DNA of 64,000 nt from Chryseobacterium gleum (GCA_945897565.1 CAMDFN010000001.1:1-64000); one strand, 5' to 3'; counted from the first letter of the stretch, positions 14,444-63,605 are shown. Notes: generated from the letters alone by a model not told the origin. Numbers and translations: made by a program.

Positions 14444-15219
14444 CACCAAAAATTTGAACGGTCTTTTTTGTTCCAAACGAATACGAGAATTGCGCCTGCG
14501 ATTGCGCCACCAATGTGAGCGAGGTGCGCTACGTTGTCGCCGGCTTGGGGCTGAAAAGATAGATACAACTCCCATAAAAAGTAGGCAGAAACCAAATACT
14601 TGGCTTTTACAGGGATGAAAAAATAAAGTCTGAATTCTGTATTCGGAAAAAGAATGGCAAAGGCGGTCATGATGCCAAATACGCCGCCAGAAGCACCAAC
14701 CATTGGTGTAATCGATTTTTGCAGGTAGTTTTCTAGGGCGGGTGTCACGCGGATTTGGTTGTCTGTGAGGTACGTATTGATTTGCCCCACTAAATCGGCA
14801 TTGAGGTTGACGTTATGTTTGAGATAGAAATCGAACTGTTCGAGGTCAAATTGACCAGCGAGCATAGATTTGAGCTGCATGATTTCTATAAAGCCAATCA
14901 TGTTGTACAACGCAAAAGAACCCATTGCACTCACGATGTAAAAAATGAAAAAGCGCTTGGCGCCCCAAATGTTTTCTAGGTAGGCACCAAGCGTCACAAA
15001 AAGCCACATATTGAAGAAAATATGCAAGAGATTGTTGGTGTCGTGCATGAAAAAATGCGTAACAACTTGATAGGGCTCAAAAAAGGGTGAGTTGATGTAA
15101 TGGGCACCCAACGACATTTCAAGGTCTATGCCCTGGCCTTTGAGCACAAAACTCGCTACAAAAAAAGCGATGTTGAGTAGCAAAATATTCTTAGTGACTT
15201 GCGGAATGTTCTGAAACAT
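14443..15219 (-). CDS. Rhomboid family intramembrane serine protease (first of tandem pair)
   Basis: 258 residues. The catalytic motif is GASGGVFGIMTAF and the His motif LAHIGGAIAGAIL. NNLLHIFFNMWLFVTLGAYLE gives the H-x-x-x-N helix. Compared with its tandem partner it has an insertion between the early helices and the serine helix (MQLKSMLAGQFDLEQFDFYL...). It lies 2 nt downstream of mutL and overlaps the next rhomboid by 4 nt, so mutL, both rhomboids, the EEP protein and the amidotransferase form one leftward operon. Confidence 0.9.
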   Translation of the reverse strand: MFQNIPQVTKNILLLNIAFFVASFVLKGQGIDLEMSLGAHYINSPFFEPYQVVTHFFMHDTNNLLHIFFNMWLFVTLGAYLENIWGAKRFFIFYIVSAMGSFALYNMIGFIEIMQLKSMLAGQFDLEQFDFYLKHNVNLNADLVGQINTYLTDNQIRVTPALENYLQKSITPMVGASGGVFGIMTAFAILFPNTEFRLYFFIPVKAKYLVSAYFLWELYLSFQPQAGDNVAHLAHIGGAIAGAILVFVWNKKDRSNFW

Positions 15220-53419: not shown

Positions 53420-53623
53420 ATGCCAAAAGACAAACACCCTGAGCGCCCACCAAGAGATAATAGCCGCATGATCTGGGAGCCAAGAAAGGTGATCAAGTCC
53501 ATAGATATCCCTCTCAATGAAGGAATAACTTGTGTGCTTGGCGCTGCGCAAAGCTGCACCAATACCAAAAAATGTAACCGCAAGAATACCTGCAATGAAT
53601 CGTTGAAACCATTTTTTAAATGA
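53420..53623 (+). CDS. Possible small Cys-containing protein (doubtful)
   Basis: 67-codon frame MPKDKHPERPPRDNS...; its TGA overlaps the next ATG (ATGA at 53620), the arrangement of coupled genes. The C-terminal third has four Cys (TCVL, QSC, KKC, NTC). Against it: the opposite strand of the same stretch reads as a plausible hydrophobic protein end (frame from about 53626 down to a TAA at about 53391, with RFIAGILAVTFFGIGAAL and SWWALRVFVFWHGFLYL), which has no start codon and could be a 5'-truncated gene remnant. I cannot decide between a small gene and the antisense of a relic. Confidence 0.3.
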   Translation: MPKDKHPERPPRDNSRMIWEPRKVIKSIDIPLNEGITCVLGAAQSCTNTKKCNRKNTCNESLKPFFK

Positions 53624-56600
53624 ACCAGCACCTCGAACCCACTTACCTCCGCTACATCTACGATGGCCTCATTAAAGGAAGCATTCATCCGGAGAATGCC
53701 GCAGAATTGCCAGACGGTCTCATTGGCATGTACGAAGAAGCCTTCGACGAGCGAACTTCCGTTGTTGAACGCCAAAAACTACTGCAACGCTTTGCCATTT
53801 GGGCACTATTAAAAAAAGAAGTGAGCGCTGCTTTTGTTGCCGAAATATTGGGCGAAACGGAAGACGACATCCAAGATTTCATTTCCAACTACAGCGCCTG
53901 GTTCAACAGCCCGGAAAGTGGCAAATACCAGTTGTACCATGAGCGCTTGAAAGTGTATTTGTTGCAGAAGTTGAGTGAGGGGGAGGTTCATATGCTTCAC
54001 GAGAAATTAATCGGAAGATTAGAACAAGCCATAGAAGAACAAAAAGCAGATGAATTTGAGTGGTATGGGTTGGAGTTTTTGGGTGTCCACTTGTGTGTTC
54101 AGGCAAGGGGGAATACAGCACTTTATTCAGTAAAACTATTACAACTTGCAGAGAACGAGTCTTTCAAAACTAGACAATATTTAATGTCCGCATCTTTTGA
54201 ATGGACTTATTCCACCTTGGATCAGATTAAATCCTACTTTTTTTCGATAAATGATTTAGATGTCTCGTTGCGAATCGAGATACTTTTTGCAGAAATATTT
54301 CACAAAGAAAAAAACAGCTTTTCAGAATTATTAAGCTTTATAGAGCAAGAAAATCTTAACCTTTTTATAAAAAGATTTAGTGCTTTAAAAGGCGAGTCAA
54401 AAATAGAAATTGAGAACTTTTTCTATTTATCTATTTTCATGTTGGATAGAATCTGTGCTTTCACGTTTAGTTCCGAGAAAATAAAAAATCAGTTTCTAGT
54501 TGCTACGGCCAAAGTTCTTGACGACAACATTCCAAATGACATAGATCAATTTGATTGGGAGCGAATTATATCTCCCAACCACGTTGTAAAAATTATAGAA
54601 AATTTAATTGAAATCAACCTTGAAAATATTCTGATTTCTAGAACTAGGTTAAATATCGACAATTGGAGAGTTGACGAAGAGAAAAAGAAACAAGCTGGAC
54701 TCGAAAAAAATCGGGTCAAAGCAGATATTTTATCAGAAACAAAAGATGTCAATGAAAAACTACCACCGCTTGAAATAAAGAATATTAAGGGGAAAAGAAA
54801 AAGCGTTGAGGCGCAGATTGAGTATTTAAAGGCGCTCTGGGAAAATAATGAAATCGAACGATCTTGGGAATTATTAGAAGAAATTAAAATCCAACTAAAA
54901 ACGTTTCCATCATTTAACTTTTATTTTCCCTACAGAATTTCAAGTTTAGGGATAACACGGATTAGAACTAGAAATTCATGTTGGTATTTTGGACAAGTTT
55001 TGGATGTAATTGGGTTTGGAACATTGCCACTTGAAAAATTTCTTAATCAATTAAGCTTTTTCAGAGTTTTAAATCCGATAAAATACAAAGAATACAGCTC
55101 GTGGTACTTCCATTATTACTATTTAGCCCAAAGCGAACTGAGGAGTCAAAATGCTGATCAAATTTTCAATGGTCAAGATATAGTTCATGTTCTAGAATTT
55201 GTTTCCGATATTCTCAACCCAGAAATTGCGTTTAAGCCGGAGGAACCAAGATTTTATGATTCATTGATTTCAACTTTGATCTTTTACGGTGAATTTAATA
55301 CAGCCTTAAATTTCATTGAAAAGCTTTCCATTGAATTTGACTTTGATGATTCGACAATTATCAATAATGCTGAATCATGGCGAGTTAGTATTTATTCAAA
55401 ATGGACTTTTGCATTTTTAGAAAAAGGTCAATTCGATCATGCAATAAATCTCTTAGGCAAATTGTCTTTGCCGTATTTCAAAGATATTATTAGGAAAACA
55501 CTTAGCTCATATTACTTAACACTTGGAGATATAAAAAATGCCGTCTTTTGGGCACTCGAAGTTTCTGAGGATAAAAGTGAATTTATAAAGTACTTGTCGT
55601 CACAAATATCAGAGATGCAATTTGAAGTATTTATCAAATGTCTTTTGCGTTTCTATCCTAAGAATAATTTTGCGACCTCAGTTATTGACTTGATAAACAT
55701 CGTTGATGCTGGAATTATTAAGCTCATTCGCGACGAATCAGCTAATTTTTGGAGTAATGTATGGTTTCTACTTCTATTACATCAGAAAGGAAGAATTGAC
55801 GATGGAACGTTCAAGTATACTTTGAAGTCACTAATAGATAATATTCCTGCAAATGATATTAAGGTAAATTTCTGTGTTCAACTCTATGGTTTATTGTGTG
55901 TTCACAAGAAGGAAAAAGGTTTTGACTTTTTACTTAAGGAAATTAAAAATCAGAAGAATATAGAAAATATTAACTCAGATGCACCATGGGGTTCTAAGCA
56001 CCATGACTTGTTTAAAAATATAGAACATAAGATATTAACAGCAGTAGATCGATACAGCCCATTAAATTTTTGGCTAAAACTTAAAATATTATCTACTATC
56101 CATACACTTAACTTTTATCGACCAATTAATAGTAAGTCAGTGATCAACTACTTTGTAAAATCAATATTTAAATCTTTTTTTAGGTTTTTTTATTATTTGA
56201 TTGTTTCAATAAGAGTATTATTCTTCCCTCAGATATTTTCAAAATTTAAAATGAATAAGAGTATGAAAACTGTTCAGAAATACCTTGACCAAGGTGATTT
56301 AGAACTTTCGATAAAAGAATTTTTAGAATTGGAAAAATTTCAGATTCATCCATATTCCAATGGGCTTGAGTTTTTTGAGTTACTGTTTTCAAAAATACAA
56401 AGTCAAGAAAAAATGTCTGATTTTGCTGTTATTTGTGGGTATACAAATGCTTGGGAACATCAGAAGCAAAAGAATTTTGTTCTCAACTTTCTCGGATTGG
56501 ACTTGAAATTCCAAAGAAATAAAGCCTATTTCGGCAATTTAAACCAGTTGCTTAACCCAAGTTCAATTTCAATAGAGGCTGTTATTAAAAGTTCCCATTT

Positions 56601-56742
56601 CTTTGAAGGAAATAGAAATTTCAGGTTCGCAACACTCTATAAATACGCTGTTCAAGTAATCTTAACTTCTGGGCAGAGTCAACAATTTGAAAAAATGATG
56701 AATTTAGACGTGTACAAAAAAATTTACAAAGCTCAACAATAA
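53620..56742 (+). CDS. STAND-type winged-helix module with long helical tail, sensor A
   Basis: 1040 residues. Residues 4-119 (HLEPTYLRYIYDGL... LLQKLS) resemble the winged-helix region that follows the NTPase of STAND/NACHT proteins (PTYLRYIYDGLIKG, ELPDGLIGMYEEAF, YQLYHERLKVYLLQKL). No NTPase precedes it. The remaining ~920 residues are helical and A+T-rich, with TPR-like pairs at ~550-650 (FNTALNFIEKLS, FDHAINLLGKLS, LGDIKNAVFWALEVS) and a hydrophobic segment at ~850-870 (FRFFYYLIVSIRVLFF). Such tails in STAND proteins recognise ligands. Abuts the next gene with zero spacing. Probable function: sensor half of a split STAND protein. Confidence 0.75.
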   Translation: MNQHLEPTYLRYIYDGLIKGSIHPENAAELPDGLIGMYEEAFDERTSVVERQKLLQRFAIWALLKKEVSAAFVAEILGETEDDIQDFISNYSAWFNSPESGKYQLYHERLKVYLLQKLSEGEVHMLHEKLIGRLEQAIEEQKADEFEWYGLEFLGVHLCVQARGNTALYSVKLLQLAENESFKTRQYLMSASFEWTYSTLDQIKSYFFSINDLDVSLRIEILFAEIFHKEKNSFSELLSFIEQENLNLFIKRFSALKGESKIEIENFFYLSIFMLDRICAFTFSSEKIKNQFLVATAKVLDDNIPNDIDQFDWERIISPNHVVKIIENLIEINLENILISRTRLNIDNWRVDEEKKKQAGLEKNRVKADILSETKDVNEKLPPLEIKNIKGKRKSVEAQIEYLKALWENNEIERSWELLEEIKIQLKTFPSFNFYFPYRISSLGITRIRTRNSCWYFGQVLDVIGFGTLPLEKFLNQLSFFRVLNPIKYKEYSSWYFHYYYLAQSELRSQNADQIFNGQDIVHVLEFVSDILNPEIAFKPEEPRFYDSLISTLIFYGEFNTALNFIEKLSIEFDFDDSTIINNAESWRVSIYSKWTFAFLEKGQFDHAINLLGKLSLPYFKDIIRKTLSSYYLTLGDIKNAVFWALEVSEDKSEFIKYLSSQISEMQFEVFIKCLLRFYPKNNFATSVIDLINIVDAGIIKLIRDESANFWSNVWFLLLLHQKGRIDDGTFKYTLKSLIDNIPANDIKVNFCVQLYGLLCVHKKEKGFDFLLKEIKNQKNIENINSDAPWGSKHHDLFKNIEHKILTAVDRYSPLNFWLKLKILSTIHTLNFYRPINSKSVINYFVKSIFKSFFRFFYYLIVSIRVLFFPQIFSKFKMNKSMKTVQKYLDQGDLELSIKEFLELEKFQIHPYSNGLEFFELLFSKIQSQEKMSDFAVICGYTNAWEHQKQKNFVLNFLGLDLKFQRNKAYFGNLNQLLNPSSISIEAVIKSSHFFEGNRNFRFATLYKYAVQVILTSGQSQQFEKMMNLDVYKKIYKAQQ
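53629..53976 (+). repeat. Conserved winged-helix block, copy A
   Basis: 348-bp coding block (116 residues) shared with 56749-57096. By eye the proteins differ at 10 of 116 positions, mostly conservative, and most DNA differences are silent third positions. The two genes diverge abruptly after the shared TTGAGTGA. Confidence 0.9.
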
Positions 56743-59007
56743 ATGCCCCACCTCGAACCCACCTACCTCCGCTACATCTACGATGGTCTAAACAAAGGAA
56801 GTATCCATCCAGAGAATTCCGCAGAATTACCGGACGGCCTAATTGGCATGTACGAAGAAGCCTTTGAGGAGCGCAAATCAGTTATCGAACGCCAAAAACT
56901 ATTGCAGCGATTTGCGATCTGGGCATTATTGAAGAAAGAAGTAAGCGCTGCCTTTGTTGCCGAAGTAGTGGGCGAATCCGAAGACGACATTCAAGAATTC
57001 ATTTCCACATACAGTGCCTGGTTCAATAGCCCCGAAAGCGGTAAATACCAATTGTACCACGAGCGCTTGAAGGTGTATTTGTTGCAGAAGTTGAGTGATT
57101 TTGAGATCAAATATTTGAATAGATTAATAATAGATAAAGTCCTATATAAGGAAGGCAATGAATTTGAAATATACAAAGTAGAGTTTTTAGTTTTTCATCT
57201 GTTAACTAACGATGATTTTTCTAAAGCATATGATTTTTTAATAGATTATCAAACTTATCTAGTTGCTGATAAGCATTTTCAATCAGATATTTTTCTTCAA
57301 TTTCAACTTGACTTATGTATTCGGAAGTTTGCTCAATTAGAAAAGGAATCTGAAGTTTTAAAATTGATAAGAATACAATATAGACAATTAGATGTTAGCC
57401 TTAATAAGGTGATAACAAACCCCTTAGTTTTATTTGATGCTATTTCATTAATTGATACAATAGAAGTTTCAAAGCGATTGAATTTAAAACAACGGATATC
57501 TTTTTGGCAAGATGTATTAATCAAATTGATTCAAAATCTCGATGATTTAATTAATGTTAATGAAGTCCTTAAAAGATTTGATAATTCTGTAGAAAGTTTT
57601 CAAATTATTGATCGTAATAGCAATCACCAATTTAAATTTGACGCGATTTCACGAAAGAATTTTTTTCTTTTAATTAATTATCTTTTGGATAATAATATCG
57701 AAGTTAATTGGCTAATTAATCGATTTGATTGGTTGCCAGATTATTCTTTATCACGAGATGCAATTTTGGATGATGAAGAATATTTTTCTGATTTTAAAAT
57801 GATTCAAGGAAATAACAAAGAAAAAATTTTAGAACATTTTAAAGAATCATTAAAAATAAAAACATTTAGTGATTTGTATAGAAGTGAAACTTGGTGTTTA
57901 AAATTCATTTTAAGGCTTGCTGAACTTAATATTCAGAATCAAACTCGAAAAATATTATTTAATGAGATTAATAATTCCATAGTTTTTAATCAAACTAAAG
58001 AACAAGTTTTATACTGTTATGCGCAAAAATATAAATTGTCCTTCCTTCCTTTTGGAATAAGTGATGAAAATTGGAAAAACAAAATAAATGATGGAATTGA
58101 TGGTCACGCATGTTTAAAATTATTATTGAAAGAACTTGATAGTGAATTGATCGTAAATAATGAAAATTTGAAATGTTTGTTCCTTGATTGTCTTTATGAG
58201 ATTTGTTCAATTACTGAAGGGGAGTTTGCGGATTACACAATCCAAGATGAACTCCTTGAAGAAATGATTCTATTATTTTTAGTTATATACACCAATGTTG
58301 GAATCGATAAATTTATTAGAGCAATCGATTTTTTTTCATTGAACTTCCAAATATCATTATGGAATGAATATGTTGGTGAGACTGGTCCATTGAATCTCAA
58401 TGAAACTATTTATGAAACTGTTCTTCCGTTTATTCTTAAATATGATAATAGAGAGAACAATGTCGCATCGTTGTTAAAAAGCCAGACCGTTAAAAAATGC
58501 GAAATCATATTGTGTTTTTGCGATATTTATAAAGAAAGCACGTTCGAAGTGAAAAATATTCCAAAGTTTATTCTGAGTGAATTAACCAATTATTTCCATG
58601 ATGAACCGGAATGTTTATTTCATATCATAGCATGTCTAAAAATAGATATAAACCTTGTATATCAGAACTTAATATATGAAAATAAACTTAATTTTAAAAG
58701 TGCAGTACTTTTTGTCTATCAGTCTTTTTTAACACAGGATATTTTAGAAAAAATAGAGGTACAGACGTGTGATGACTTAAATTCAGAAAATATAACTTTT
58801 TTAGAACCTCTGCTACAGAAAGTGCTCATTCACCTTATAAATTCTGATTTAACATCAAAGAAATTATTATCACAATTATTGGATACCATGATCAACTCTA
58901 AAAGATATTACGACATAACGGATTTATTGAATATATGTAATAATAAATCCTTTATATATATGAAATTCAGGAATGATTTTAAATATGCAAATCAGCTAAT
59001 TTCTTAA
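56743..59007 (+). CDS. STAND-type winged-helix module with divergent helical tail, sensor B
   Basis: 754 residues. Residues 3-118 are ~91% identical to the N-terminal block of the preceding gene. Beyond that only faint similarity remains for ~40 residues (EIKYLNRLIIDKV.. NEFEIYKVEFLVFHLL against EVHMLHEKLIGRLEQA.. DEFEWYGLEFLGVHL), after which the tail differs completely. The tail is very A+T-rich, Ile/Lys/Asn-rich and helical, without recognisable repeats or membrane helices. It starts right at the previous stop codon (TAAATG) and ends 2 nt before the next gene. It looks like an alternative sensor for the same NTPase. Confidence 0.75.
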   Translation: MPHLEPTYLRYIYDGLNKGSIHPENSAELPDGLIGMYEEAFEERKSVIERQKLLQRFAIWALLKKEVSAAFVAEVVGESEDDIQEFISTYSAWFNSPESGKYQLYHERLKVYLLQKLSDFEIKYLNRLIIDKVLYKEGNEFEIYKVEFLVFHLLTNDDFSKAYDFLIDYQTYLVADKHFQSDIFLQFQLDLCIRKFAQLEKESEVLKLIRIQYRQLDVSLNKVITNPLVLFDAISLIDTIEVSKRLNLKQRISFWQDVLIKLIQNLDDLINVNEVLKRFDNSVESFQIIDRNSNHQFKFDAISRKNFFLLINYLLDNNIEVNWLINRFDWLPDYSLSRDAILDDEEYFSDFKMIQGNNKEKILEHFKESLKIKTFSDLYRSETWCLKFILRLAELNIQNQTRKILFNEINNSIVFNQTKEQVLYCYAQKYKLSFLPFGISDENWKNKINDGIDGHACLKLLLKELDSELIVNNENLKCLFLDCLYEICSITEGEFADYTIQDELLEEMILLFLVIYTNVGIDKFIRAIDFFSLNFQISLWNEYVGETGPLNLNETIYETVLPFILKYDNRENNVASLLKSQTVKKCEIILCFCDIYKESTFEVKNIPKFILSELTNYFHDEPECLFHIIACLKIDINLVYQNLIYENKLNFKSAVLFVYQSFLTQDILEKIEVQTCDDLNSENITFLEPLLQKVLIHLINSDLTSKKLLSQLLDTMINSKRYYDITDLLNICNNKSFIYMKFRNDFKYANQLIS
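56749..57096 (+). repeat. Conserved winged-helix block, copy B
   Basis: Second copy of the 348-bp block at 53629-53976. Identity starts at CAC CTC GAA, directly after each gene's own start codons (ATG AAC CAG in A, ATG CCC in B), and ends at TTG AGT. Confidence 0.9.
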
Positions 59008-59009
59008 GA

Positions 59010-59720
59010 ATGAACAAAGAAACTCACCCATTTCTAGAACTTGGTAAAGTGCCAAATGCTACCAAATTAATACTCGGTTCATTTCCAGTATATTCTATTA
59101 CGTTGCCTGATTCGGAGGATAAACAGAGAATTCGTAAAAGTGACGGCACAGTTCCATTTTTTTATGGTAGTTGTCGAAGTAGTTTTTGGGGGCTTTATCA
59201 TTTGTACATTGATAGTAGATTGCAAGTGCCGGTAAAACCAGAACTTGCAATTCAAAGCCTAAAAAACCATAGTATTTCTATTTCTGATATTATTTCTGAG
59301 TGTAAAAGGAATGGAATAAGTGCTTTGGATTCAGATTTGTCGAAGCGAGTTTACAATATTGAAATGATGAATGAATTCTTAAATTCCGGAGTTACCAAAA
59401 TATTGTGCACATCTAAAGGAGTGATGGAAATGTTTCATGATCATGTTGTAAAGAAATCAAAAACATTAATTTATCAAGAGTCTGAGTCATTAAAATGGCA
59501 ATCTCAAATCATTTCAAAACTAAAAGGAGATGATTCGCAAATCAAAAAGCTAATTTGTAAGCAGTATCTTTTCAAAGGAAAAACAGTTAGATTAATTTCA
59601 ATTCCTTCGCCTGGTTCACCACAAAGACAATTGAAACAATTTGGTTTTGCAGGTTATGATTGGCGAGAATATGCTGATAAGTATTTTGAATTTTCATTTA
59701 AATGGTTAAACCAAAACTAA
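59010..59720 (+). CDS. Uracil-DNA-glycosylase-fold protein
   Basis: 236 residues. The layout of motifs follows the UDG superfamily (MUG/family-like): LILGSFPVYSI at ~20-30 (motif A position), FFYGSCRSSFWGLYHL (~50-65, the region equivalent to YYGxPRNxFW), ISISDIISECKRNGISALDSDL (~90-112), KILCTSKGVMEMF (central strand) and RLISIPSPGSPQR (~197-209, the S-P motif B position). The typical Asn/Asp of motif A is not obvious, so catalytic competence is uncertain. It starts 2 nt after sensor B in the same operon. It could excise modified bases, for example from phage DNA, or only bind DNA. Confidence 0.65.
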   Translation: MNKETHPFLELGKVPNATKLILGSFPVYSITLPDSEDKQRIRKSDGTVPFFYGSCRSSFWGLYHLYIDSRLQVPVKPELAIQSLKNHSISISDIISECKRNGISALDSDLSKRVYNIEMMNEFLNSGVTKILCTSKGVMEMFHDHVVKKSKTLIYQESESLKWQSQIISKLKGDDSQIKKLICKQYLFKGKTVRLISIPSPGSPQRQLKQFGFAGYDWREYADKYFEFSFKWLNQN

Positions 59721-59725
59721 TTACT

Positions 59726-59959
59726 ATGTACTATTTCTACATCAACTATCCAAATTTTAAAGATCGAACAATTTTAATCCATCATGGTGATTGTGGCCAA
59801 TGTAAAGATGGAAATGGAATGTTTGATTCTGGAAGTAATGAAAAAGGCTTTTGGGCCGGGCCATTCAAAGAATTTAGTCATGCGGAAGAAGCACTAAAAA
59901 ATCTGATACATCTATTTAATTACCAGCCAGAAATTGGAAATCACTCATGTTGCAAATAA
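59726..59959 (+). CDS. Small protein with GDCGQC motif
   Basis: 77 residues from ATG 59726 (MYYFYINYPNFKDRTILIHHG), 5 nt after the UDG-like gene. The motif HHGDCGQCKDGNGMFDSGSNEKGFWAGPF is similar to small proteins I have seen in plasmid and island contexts (YYFYINYP... H.G.C..C). Two Cys in GDCGQC and a C-terminal CC could bind metal. No known function. The last 13 nt overlap the HEPN gene, so translation is coupled. Confidence 0.6.
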   Translation: MYYFYINYPNFKDRTILIHHGDCGQCKDGNGMFDSGSNEKGFWAGPFKEFSHAEEALKNLIHLFNYQPEIGNHSCCK

Positions 59960-61473
59960 AGAACTCCAACCTCCCACCACGCCTCCTCCAAAAAATCCAG
60001 GCGGTTCAATCTGAAGACGATGCTTACGCGGCGGATGAACTCGTTGAATTAGGCGAAGAAATTCTGTCGCAATTGGCTGCGAAGGGTATTGCCGTCTATT
60101 TGCAGCAAGCGAAGCAGAAAGAAGTGTTTAACGACTTTTTGATTTCGTTGTTTTTGTCGAATGGGCATGCTTATAACGCAGGGCCGTTGTATCGTTGGGC
60201 TGCTAATATGCTCAAAGATGCTGATGGGGCAGAAGCGGCGCTTTTGAAACCTTTTTTCTGGGAAGAGAAGGATGGTAAACAAGTATTGAATGAGGCAATT
60301 CATCATTTGGCGAGTTTGAGAAATGCCGTGATGCACGGATTTTTTGTTTTGCCACCCGAGCGAAATAGGGAAGAGGCGAAAAAAATGGAAGCTATTCTGG
60401 CTCAGATGAACCAGGCAGGTTTGTTTGAAAAGCAGTTTGGAGCGTTCCATTTTGTGGATACGCAAGGATTCAACGGACATTGGAATATTACAGATGCGCA
60501 AGCTTGGAGTGCTTTTGATGCGCAATTTGCGTTCGGTCAGTTGGCGGCACGGGTAGCGCATGAGTATGCGCCAAGTTTTAGAACGGAAGAGCAGCAATTC
60601 GCATTGGAACAATTTGAAGAAAATACAAAGGTTTCCGATGAAGTTGCTTCGTTGCTTCAAAAGGGCAAGGGCGCATTGGTGGCTTGGTATAAGCCAGGAG
60701 CTGAACAAGGAGCTTCTGCTTATAAGCAATTTGTCCAGCGACTAGATACGTCAATTTTTCATCCGGTTTATTACGCATTACATCCAAACGGTGCTACGTT
60801 TACGGCCTCTTTTTTAGAGCAAGAATTAGCCAAGAGTTTGTTTGCATTGACAAGTGATGAAAAGGCGCTCAAAGACCCTTGGAAGTTTTTGAAGGCTCAA
60901 AAAGGGAAGCTGTCCAAAAAGATTGTAGTTGTGCTTCATGATGTGCATATTGCACTTTTCAGCCCGAATCACCTGACTAACTTGTTCAATGCTTTTTACG
61001 ATGCCGAGATTCCTGTTTTGGCCACAGCTTGGCATTATCCATACTTGAAACGATTCTTCAATAGTTCAGTTGAATTAGTAGGATCTAATAGTGCGGTTCA
61101 GGATGCCGCTATTCAATTTTCTTTGCATAATTACCTGCGCTTCAAAGGCCCAAGTGAGGAGCAAGAGACAGAGCGTTTGGCCTACACACAACTCAAGGAA
61201 ATCACCTCAAAACTTCAACATGAAATAGAGGAGAAGCAAAGTGTGGTTGCACGACGTTTTGCCGATGAAAATAAGTATCCGATAGAATTTGTGCACGAAG
61301 CATTCGGGATACTTTCGCCTTTTTATAGCCTAGACAAGCAACCATTTATTCAAGATGAAGTAGATGAACTCTATGGCTTCCCCAAAACCATTGAAGAAAG
61401 CTCCAGAATTTTCCTAACTTTAGGAAGGCGAGATGTGAAATTAGAGTATCAGCATAAAGTACTACATAAATAA
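59947..61473 (+). CDS. HEPN-domain protein with degenerate P-loop NTPase fold
   Basis: 508 residues. A helical N-terminal domain ends with LASLRNAVMHGFF, an Rx4H motif (R125, H130) typical of HEPN domains, many of which are RNases in defence systems. From ~230 the order mimics a STAND NTPase: a hydrophobic strand and a Gly-containing loop without GK (LVAWYKPGAEQGASAYKQF, ~244-262), a second strand (FHPVYYALHPNG), and a Walker B-like strand (KKIVVVLHDVHIALF, ~324-338) followed by IPVLATAWHYP. The P-loop Lys is lost, so ATP hydrolysis is unlikely. It may act with the NTPase encoded at 62115. Confidence 0.6.
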   Translation: MLQIKNSNLPPRLLQKIQAVQSEDDAYAADELVELGEEILSQLAAKGIAVYLQQAKQKEVFNDFLISLFLSNGHAYNAGPLYRWAANMLKDADGAEAALLKPFFWEEKDGKQVLNEAIHHLASLRNAVMHGFFVLPPERNREEAKKMEAILAQMNQAGLFEKQFGAFHFVDTQGFNGHWNITDAQAWSAFDAQFAFGQLAARVAHEYAPSFRTEEQQFALEQFEENTKVSDEVASLLQKGKGALVAWYKPGAEQGASAYKQFVQRLDTSIFHPVYYALHPNGATFTASFLEQELAKSLFALTSDEKALKDPWKFLKAQKGKLSKKIVVVLHDVHIALFSPNHLTNLFNAFYDAEIPVLATAWHYPYLKRFFNSSVELVGSNSAVQDAAIQFSLHNYLRFKGPSEEQETERLAYTQLKEITSKLQHEIEEKQSVVARRFADENKYPIEFVHEAFGILSPFYSLDKQPFIQDEVDELYGFPKTIEESSRIFLTLGRRDVKLEYQHKVLHK

Positions 61474-61479
61474 ATCAAA

Positions 61480-62118
61480 ATGTTAGATAAAATCAAGTTG
61501 CCTGTAAACCAAATAGAGTCATATTTACAAGATGCGCAATCTATTTTAGAAGCAAAAAATATTGAAGAGTTAGCTTCAGTTTTAGAGTCAAGCCAGTCTG
61601 ATATGAATCAAGTCTATGAAGGTGGTTTGAGTCAGATCAAGTCTGATTTAAAAGCAGCAGGAAAGAAAACAAGCTTTGATGAGGTACAGTATTCACTATT
61701 GTCCGATTACATTGGCTTTAATTTACAAACTATCATCTTTGAAGAATTTTTCCCTTCTATCGAAGATACAACTTATACAGTCGAGCATATTCCTAATTTA
61801 TTGACTGGAGGAGAGCCAGGGGACGAGAACATGCAAAAAGTACGATTTATGAAATTCATTGGTTTATGTGGAAAGTCTATGGTTAGCGTTTCAAATTTTG
61901 CCGCAGCCACTGAAATTACCCCGATGGATTCTTTTATTGCTGACTTAAACGAAGCGACCATAATTGGACATTCATGGAACTCACCGTTGATATCTGTTTT
62001 CCCTCCGAAGGATAGCGCGTTTTTTACAAAGCTCTACTCAACCAAAGATTGGAAAAAGAAATTCTATCAACGTTGCATCAATGTTGTAAATGAGATGTTA
62101 ACCAATATTCAAGAATGA
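61480..62118 (+). CDS. Hypothetical protein of the HEPN/STAND operon
   Basis: 212 residues, acidic, no signal peptide or membrane helix. N-terminal half helical (LPVNQIESYLQDAQSILEAK, QSDMNQVYEGGLSQIKSDLK), followed by a mixed region with GGEPGDENMQKVRFMKF and SWNSPLISVFPPKDSAFF. No family recognised. It starts 6 nt after the HEPN protein and overlaps the STAND NTPase by 4 nt (ATGA), so it is part of the same complex-forming set. It could be an inhibitor, adaptor or effector. Confidence 0.6.
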   Translation: MLDKIKLPVNQIESYLQDAQSILEAKNIEELASVLESSQSDMNQVYEGGLSQIKSDLKAAGKKTSFDEVQYSLLSDYIGFNLQTIIFEEFFPSIEDTTYTVEHIPNLLTGGEPGDENMQKVRFMKFIGLCGKSMVSVSNFAAATEITPMDSFIADLNEATIIGHSWNSPLISVFPPKDSAFFTKLYSTKDWKKKFYQRCINVVNEMLTNIQE

Positions 62119-63605
62119 ACCCAGTCCATCAATACCACAAGCGCTATTTAGAACTCAAGTCTGAGAAAGCAATTAGTACTGACATAGATACACTTCAACG
62201 ATTGGTTGAGGAAGACTCTGCAGGGCTAAACAATTTCTATATGGCAGCATTGGGAATGAGCACACTGATGCTCAGGTTGGGTGCAGTAATTCAGCTTTGT
62301 CAGAAATTTGAGAGACTAGATGATCAAGGCGATGCGTTGTTCATGAAGCAAATCTTGGATAACCTACGTGAATCCTTACCCTCAGACACAAGTTGGAAGA
62401 ATTTGTGGGCACTTTCTGCTGAAGATGAACGCTGGATGGCCCCAACCGTGAAACCAAAGAACGGCGAGCCCTTACTCAATCGCTTTATTACTTTCAGAAA
62501 CCGCTATGTGCACCAACTGATTCGTATTGAAGCCCAATTTGTACCCCAGTTACAGACATCTATCACATTGTTTGATGAATTGGCTGCATTGAGCCATCTT
62601 TTTGAAGGCGGTTCATTGGAGTTAATTGACGGTAAATACCTTTGGGTTCAAAATGGACAAACCTTGCAGTTGTATCCATATGTGCAGCCTGGAAAAGCAG
62701 GTGAAGACCCATACATTTTTCAAGGCCTTTATCATAACAAATCAAAAGCGCATTTATTGAATTTGCGTCTAGGTGATGAGGTAGACCAACCAGCAATAGA
62801 TCACCTTGAACCAACCTTTGACCCGATCAAAGATGCCATCAGAGGTGGTGCTGGTCAGGTTTTTGACCACAGCGAACGAATTGCTTACTATCAATCATGT
62901 TTTGTGGGCAGGGAGCGTGAGAAAGCCGCTGTTCTAGAATTCTGTAATGCTTCAGATGAGCAAAACATTCTTTGCATCAAGTCACCAGCCGGAATGGGTA
63001 AAGGTGCGCTTCTTGCTGATGTCATTGAACAACTCAAAGAAGATAAAAATCAAGTATTGTATCACTTTTGTGGGGCAGGCATGCAAAACAGCCTCCATGC
63101 CAGCTTGTATCATTACATTTTGCAAGGTCAGCGTGCTCAGTATTGGGATACAACTGACGAACAAATTCAACGCAAATTGGAGCGCTTGCCGTCCAAATAC
63201 ATCGACGTTATCCACTTGTTTCAATCATTACTTACTGACCATCTCAAAATTCAGAAGAATAATGCGAGTGGTAATTTGGTAATACTCATCGATGGTCTTG
63301 ACGAAGCGCAGGTAGCCTATTCACAACTCAAAATTTCAGATTGGTTTTATACCTACAATGACAAAGAAGAACCAGATGAGGACTGGAGAAGTCCAAGTCA
63401 CATCCGCTGGATTTTTACTTACCGCTGTGATGACGACGGCTCAGAATCATTCTATCAATTCCCCAAAATGAAAGAACTAGCCTCTCTTCCTATACTTCAA
63501 CCATTAACTGGCCTTTCTCCAGCCGCCGTAGATGACGCCTTTAAGCAGTTTAGTGTTTCGAAGGAATTCAAAGTGGCGGTAATAGAGAAGGCGGTGATTG
63601 TTTAA
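62115..63605 (+). CDS. HEPN-STAND NTPase ending before the winged-helix region
   Basis: 496 residues. Residues 1-~165 form a HEPN-like helical domain with FRNRYVHQL, an Rx4H motif (R128, H133). A small beta region follows (LELIDGKYLWVQNGQTLQL). The STAND core begins at FVGREREKAAVLEF (~263): P-loop KSPAGMGKGALLADV (~289-303), Walker B LVILIDGLDEAQV (~388-400), sensor strand WIFTYR, and LQPLTGLSPAAVDDAF. It stops at VIEKAVIV, where family members continue into the winged-helix region that starts the proteins at 53620 and 56743. The residue after the P-loop Lys is Gly instead of Ser/Thr. Likely the NTPase/effector half of a split system. Confidence 0.75.
   Translation: MNPVHQYHKRYLELKSEKAISTDIDTLQRLVEEDSAGLNNFYMAALGMSTLMLRLGAVIQLCQKFERLDDQGDALFMKQILDNLRESLPSDTSWKNLWALSAEDERWMAPTVKPKNGEPLLNRFITFRNRYVHQLIRIEAQFVPQLQTSITLFDELAALSHLFEGGSLELIDGKYLWVQNGQTLQLYPYVQPGKAGEDPYIFQGLYHNKSKAHLLNLRLGDEVDQPAIDHLEPTFDPIKDAIRGGAGQVFDHSERIAYYQSCFVGREREKAAVLEFCNASDEQNILCIKSPAGMGKGALLADVIEQLKEDKNQVLYHFCGAGMQNSLHASLYHYILQGQRAQYWDTTDEQIQRKLERLPSKYIDVIHLFQSLLTDHLKIQKNNASGNLVILIDGLDEAQVAYSQLKISDWFYTYNDKEEPDEDWRSPSHIRWIFTYRCDDDGSESFYQFPKMKELASLPILQPLTGLSPAAVDDAFKQFSVSKEFKVAVIEKAVIV

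Follow-up and report, generated by a model that had tools for sequence, protein, structure and literature searches.

Eight genes lie tightly packed or overlapping on the plus strand between positions 53420 and 63605 of the window, the whole stretch of 64,000 nucleotides that was analysed, and their spacing suggests a single operon (Table 1). The source genome comprises 2.24 Mb in 54 contigs, and its relatives considered here are Flavobacteriales and other Bacteroidota metagenome-assembled genomes (MAGs); genomes and loci are given as G and L numbers. To the left of the operon lies a conserved set of genes for DUF4407, OmpA, DUF350 and thioesterase proteins, with a CbbX-like AAA gene on the opposite strand. 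No family was found in Pfam, PADLOC or NCBIfam for the 67-aa ORF, and the product of the 236-aa accessory gene, which matches TIGR04274 at E 7e-6, under the family cut-off, has homologues in G127 (85%), G015 (84%) and G193 (75%).

Table 1. Genes and sequence features of the operon, in order along the plus strand
Feature	Position	Strand	Remarks
67-aa ORF	53420..53623	+	First in the row; stop overlaps the start of block-tail gene 1 (ATGA)
Block-tail gene 1, 1040 aa	53620..56742	+	Predicted GxP/winged-helix block and tail 1; ORF, block homologues
Block copy 1	53629..53976	+	Predicted GxP/lid helix and winged helix from the C-terminal end of a STAND NTPase module
Tail 1, putative sensor	53977..56739	+	G+C 0.316
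Block-tail gene 2, 754 aa	56743..59007	+	ORF; full-length homologue in G127, 72%
Block copy 2	56749..57096	+	Found by blastn; identity to block 1
Tail 2, putative sensor	57097..59004	+	G+C 0.260; predicted all-helical (AlphaFold, low confidence)
236-aa accessory gene	59010..59720	+	Weakly DNA-deoxyinosine (uracil-type) glycosylase-like; recurs in related loci
85-aa accessory ORF	59702..59959	+	82% homologue adjoining the core in G087
Core protein, 508 aa	59947..61473	+	Conserved RN-x3-H (HEPN motif)
212-aa accessory gene	61480..62118	+	G136 has a 71% homologue at this hot spot
Core HEPN-NTPase, 496 aa	62115..63605	+	Walker A (292-298) and Walker B; without winged helix; stops where the block begins

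The second and third genes open with copies of one 348-bp block, the second copy being recovered by blastn with the first at E 4.6e-117. They share 301 of 348 bases and 106 of 116 residues (91%), and most differences are silent (pS 0.50, pN 0.043). Homology sets in directly 3′ of the two starts (MNQHLEPT at 53620 and MPHLEPT at 56743) and the blocks end at LQKLS, followed by EGEV in one gene and DFEI in the other, past which pN between the tails rises to 0.41–0.55; beyond about residue 155 they show no relatedness. Both tails are more A+T-rich than the blocks (G+C 0.474 and 0.466) and the window (0.425). A sequence-only reading of this stretch had claimed such a duplicated module, identical from just past the start codons and joined to unrelated, A+T-rich tails, and these observations bear it out. 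Its abrupt block end holds for the two window genes but not against other genomes, where homology to tail 1 persists to about residue 200–345, so that the sharp edge is specific to the window pair. That reading also stopped at the second block; gene 2 ends at 59007, and the operon continues as far as about 63605.

The block and the end of the NTPase

The 496-aa protein, encoded 5–10 kb downstream of the blocks in the same operon, matches NPHP3_N above the Pfam cut-off (E 6e-13) and shows similarity to AAA_16 and NACHT; AGxGKGA and D393, L395 and D396 are invariant in the 11 members of its family. It has the P-loop NTPase with Walker A and B motifs and the STAND-like fold of a STAND protein. 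In its AlphaFold model (pLDDT 82) the N-terminal part is helical, and the best structural match is Avs3 (8dgc; Z 14.2, rmsd 3.5 over 216 residues), with MalT, ORC/Cdc6, ZAR1, NRC, Apaf-1 and CED-4 as further matches. The match stops at Apaf-1 residue 322, which we take to be the position of the GxP motif. Profile and alignment checks of the 496-aa protein found nothing after the NTPase part and no winged helix, and nowhere in the window do a GxP/lid segment and winged helix follow a STAND NTPase on the same chain; the two would be united only in a putative two-chain complex.

What the NTPase lacks appears to stand at the head of the block-tail proteins. The NTPase ends in ...EFKVAVIEKAVIV and the block begins with HLEPTYLRYIYDGL; of the block start (H)LEPTYLRYIYDGL, P and Y are invariant among block homologues. 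At L081, uniquely among relatives, NTPase and block form a single chain of 1044 aa, reading ...EFVQTVLERGVGVMKIIDPTYLRTIHDGL... at the joint, in which the NTPase profile covers residues 1–493, the block profile (3–117) follows directly and TPRs stand at the end. An ordinary one-piece STAND protein at L062 (NACHT 269–438, AAA_lid_TANC1 442–492, then TPRs) reads KRSEGNPLYLKLL (EGNPLYLKLL) at the equivalent point and matches the block at 460–572 (E 6e-8). From the L081 chain, the L062 protein and the end point of the NTPase, the block is best read as the lid/GxP and winged-helix end of a STAND switch, severed from its NTPase, and not as a free adaptor. Here we depart from the sequence-only reading, in which the block was a conserved adaptor on varying sensors: the varying, sensor-like tails stand, but the block corresponds to the latter half of a STAND NTPase module whose first half is the last gene of the operon, and the system is thus an immune ATPase in two parts and not an adaptor system of the polymorphic-toxin kind.

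The AlphaFold model of the 754-aa block-tail protein is poor (pLDDT 61), so that the winged-helix fold of the block is deduced from its sequence position and from the one-piece relatives. Among the matches listed for this model there was no winged helix, at a confidence low enough for the fold still to be present, and the top match (Avs3 residues 509–1108) was set aside as evidence at an rmsd of 30.8. The L081 fusion is one case, on a 3.2-kb MAG contig, and because a Met is kept at its joint (GVMKIIDPTYL), adjacent split genes may have fused there secondarily, or the joint may be an assembly indel. Split genes overlap or abut in the order NTPase then block at L041, L062, L079 and L080. Distances between blocks correlate with those between NTPases (r 0.86), but other core pairs correlate as well (0.96 for the 508-aa protein and the NTPase), so that the value is no sign of specific co-adaptation. 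On the L062 contig (4146-8759), from a Chitinophagaceae MAG, a related one-piece STAND-TPR protein is encoded about 1.2 kb upstream of the split operon.

Both core proteins have the conserved RN-x3-H motif of the helical HEPN RNase domain: R128, N129 and H133 are invariant in the 11 members of the 496-aa family, and R125, N126 and H130 in the nine members of the 508-aa family. Profile matches fall below the curated cut-offs, with HEPN_LA2681 at best E 8e-4 in 4 of 9 members of the 508-aa family and HepT-like at best E 0.028 in 2 of 11 members of the 496-aa family; judged from the motif, the HEPN domains of both proteins are probably RNases. Compared with each other, the two family profiles align weakly and only around RN-x3-H, which makes no case for an origin of the 508-aa protein from a common NTPase.

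Related loci and diversity of the tails

The block was present in 15 of 200 sampled genomes of the family, in several of them only as remnants, and its range within the class is wider; the set analysed comprised 35 block-tail genes at 20 loci in 19 Bacteroidota genomes. Loci of sufficient length contain between one and three block-tail genes together with the pair of 508-aa and 496-aa core genes, which adjoin or are near each other. Block-tail genes stand before the pair in Flavobacteriales, after it at L060, L079 and L041, and on both sides at L062 and L080.

The core is constant and the tails are exchangeable. All 595 of 595 block pairs match in BLASTP, as against 35 of 325 distal-tail pairs, and some neighbouring block-tail genes of one locus have tails without detectable similarity. 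Tail 1 was not found in any other of the 200 family genomes, and tail 2 occurs at full length in one of them (G127, 68%), with fragments or distant versions in G167 (partial), G153 and L057. Nearly all block-tail genes have a tail poorer in G+C than their block. TPRs were recognised in several tails of relatives, and no family of Pfam, PADLOC or NCBIfam was found in the two window tails, toxin and effector families included. The same databases hold no family for blocks, tails or the 508-aa protein. Searches of a plasmid collection gave no match to the NTPase, those of IMG/VR no relative of the block, so that the system is not evidently phage-borne, and phylum-wide samples added almost nothing beyond relatives already known. 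The same block with many other tails is what the mosaic reading had predicted; the contrary pattern, the same two tails throughout with block and tail evolving alike, did not appear.

Exchange between blocks and tails

In the pair of tail-2 genes (window and G127), pS is 0.66 in the block and 0.46 in the tail; none of 517 block-length stretches of the tail reaches the block value (permutation p 0.005). Two other pairs with a shared tail deviate in the same direction (p 0.01, codon shuffling), with some tail stretches that do reach the block value. In the tail-2 pair pN is 0.06 in the block, far more strongly constrained, versus 0.18 in the tail. The block tree places the two tail-2 genes in different clades and pairs both blocks of one genome despite their unrelated tails (G111, L057, L060, G101). 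Different silent divergence and different trees together indicate that blocks and tails have been exchanged, and blocks tend to resemble each other within a genome. Among close relatives, blocks are under strong purifying selection (pN 0.02–0.06 versus pS 0.4–0.7).

A recombination site at the DNA level in the first 30 or so codons of the block was considered and is not supported by synonymous divergence, which is low in codons 1–24 (0.21–0.28) but hardly reduced over the whole of block codons 1–32 (0.34 versus 0.37). When window positions 56743-63605 are compared with G127 (L031), dS is about 0.47 for the 508-aa and 236-aa genes and about 1.9 for the NTPase, and such unevenness between neighbouring genes suggests patchwork exchange along the operon.

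A hot spot for defence genes

Relatives without the operon keep its ends: on the left the first 28–91 codons of a block, on the right, in G037, the last 96 or so codons of the NTPase. Between or beside these remnants lie genes for Avs2-like one-piece STAND proteins (G136, G037 and L061), at L061 additionally PDC-S01 and PDC-S31 candidates, and behind a block stub in G194 and G163 an AbiGi gene. By its gene content the site is a defence hot spot, at which the split system is interchangeable with relatives of known antiphage STANDs. From this shared hot spot we infer an antiphage role, with the tails as sensors and the HEPN domains as output.

Stubs of the block 5′ end, 23–35 codons long, stand before unrelated defence genes (L043:9898-9981 and 14458-14526; L042:196-279; L033:15806-15886; L044:9633-9707; L035:8651-8749), several of them as open mini-ORFs of 36–40 codons. 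G136 has one stub before each of two Avs2-like genes, the second of which is decayed. Over 200 bp of DNA the AbiGi genes of L042 (G163) and L033 (G194) are about 99% identical, but the block stubs fronting them only about 86%, which marks a sharp exchange point at the stub edge. Decayed NTPase 3′ ends occur at L031:19486-19641, L033:5332-5448 and L044:4504-4791, in G127 and G194 as extras downstream of an intact copy and in G037 alone, a pattern that would fit duplication or exchange of the operon's right end.

Comparison with known systems

The Avs proteins come closest. Besides the structural match of the NTPase half to Avs3, they share the order effector, NTPase, lid/winged helix and helical sensor, and relatives carry Avs2-like genes at this locus instead of the operon. 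Yet an Avs protein is one chain with one sensor, whereas here a cut at the GxP motif divides the switch, at least two genes share the roles of effector, STAND NTPase and repeat sensor, and a single NTPase has several sensor chains beside it; PADLOC gave no Avs match among the window proteins. Bacterial NLR-related (bNACHT) proteins, Apaf-1, CED-4 and plant NLRs also combine a STAND NTPase, lid and winged helix with a repeat-type C-terminal sensor, but all are single chains. In NAIP-NLRC4 and sensor-helper NLR pairs the engine is common to complete NTPases, not to half-NTPases.

A constant core with many exchangeable C-terminal domains, some on separate genes, has been described for vWA/MoxR, iSTAND and GTPase-centric conflict systems (PMC7159879); their core proteins differ, and a STAND NTPase with a cut inside the switch does not figure in the searched passages of that source. 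C-terminal sensors on STAND NTPases are also diversified by diversity-generating retroelements (DGR), although by targeted hypermutation of C-type lectin domains (PMC10907252) and not, as here, by exchange of whole tails. A literature search, in which subscription journals were thinly covered, found no split STAND system and only one-chain STAND sensors; we claim no priority. As we read it, the locus is a form of STAND-type immunity in which the switch comes as two parts and the sensor half in several versions.

A split switch and its alternatives

A composite, split architecture is well supported by sequence, which shows the exact place of the split, the one-chain fusion, the constant core with its varying tails and the recombination between them, and we consider it probable that the operon encodes a split STAND (NLR/Avs-like) defence system in which a shared engine serves several swappable sensors. 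The 496-aa protein would join an N-terminal HEPN-like effector domain to the nucleotide-binding half of a STAND NTPase, and the block of each block-tail protein would supply the GxP/lid helix and winged helix in trans, with the tails as sensors of alpha-helical or TPR repeats. Docked through its constant block on the shared NTPase, a sensor protein would hold the NTPase off until its own ligand, probably a phage protein, bound; the engine would then exchange nucleotide and oligomerise, whereupon the HEPN domains of both core proteins, probably RNases, would stop the cell. More tentatively, and with our own belief inclining slightly the other way, the system may be a combinatorial receptor, in which HEPN-NTPase active sites are completed in trans by any co-encoded sensor chain, perhaps mixed in one oligomer, and specificities are gained by acquiring a block-tail gene with the engine unchanged.

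That the block is a free adaptor in the style of polymorphic toxins or effector-associated domains, which merely recruits partners to tails that are effectors, would account for a constant N-terminal module with varying C-terminal parts. We think it unlikely, given that the block aligns to the segment right after the NTPase in L081 and in ordinary STANDs and that the recognisable tails are TPRs rather than toxins or effectors. Alternatively, the block-tail proteins could be dedicated inhibitors of NTPase self-activation, as the lid and winged helix normally hold a STAND protein off, and recognition could lie elsewhere, for instance in the 508-aa core protein that accompanies the NTPase; tails as long, diverse and lineage-specific as these are, however, typical of ligand-binding parts, and the fused form shows the usual receptor order of NTPase, block and TPRs, which leaves this reading with about as small a chance as the adaptor.

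Tandem copies with a common junction block, and the fused gene in one genome, also recall the silent cassettes of Rhs loci, in which case the block-tail genes would be donors that recombine onto the end of the NTPase gene. But all block-tail genes are complete ORFs that have starts of their own, and they often overlap or abut the gene beside them; at every locus but one the NTPase gene stops before the block, tailless, which normally leaves no expressed copy onto which a cassette could recombine. This we regard as still less probable. Least credible of all, and hardly to be expected, is that insertion broke up one ancestral STAND gene, of which the NTPase and the block-tail genes would be the remains: relatives do carry other insertions and true remnants, but the position of the split has been conserved in close relatives and in other families of the class alike, the purifying selection on the blocks is strong and the Walker motifs are intact.

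If the split STAND reading is true, bacteria have cut an NLR-type immune ATPase in two at its nucleotide-sensing motif, so that the engine stands apart and the receptor has become a plug-in: a natural split NLR. Such a system would be useful for learning how ligand binding passes through the lid and winged helix, how strains exchange specificities, and whether several sensors share one resistosome-like assembly.
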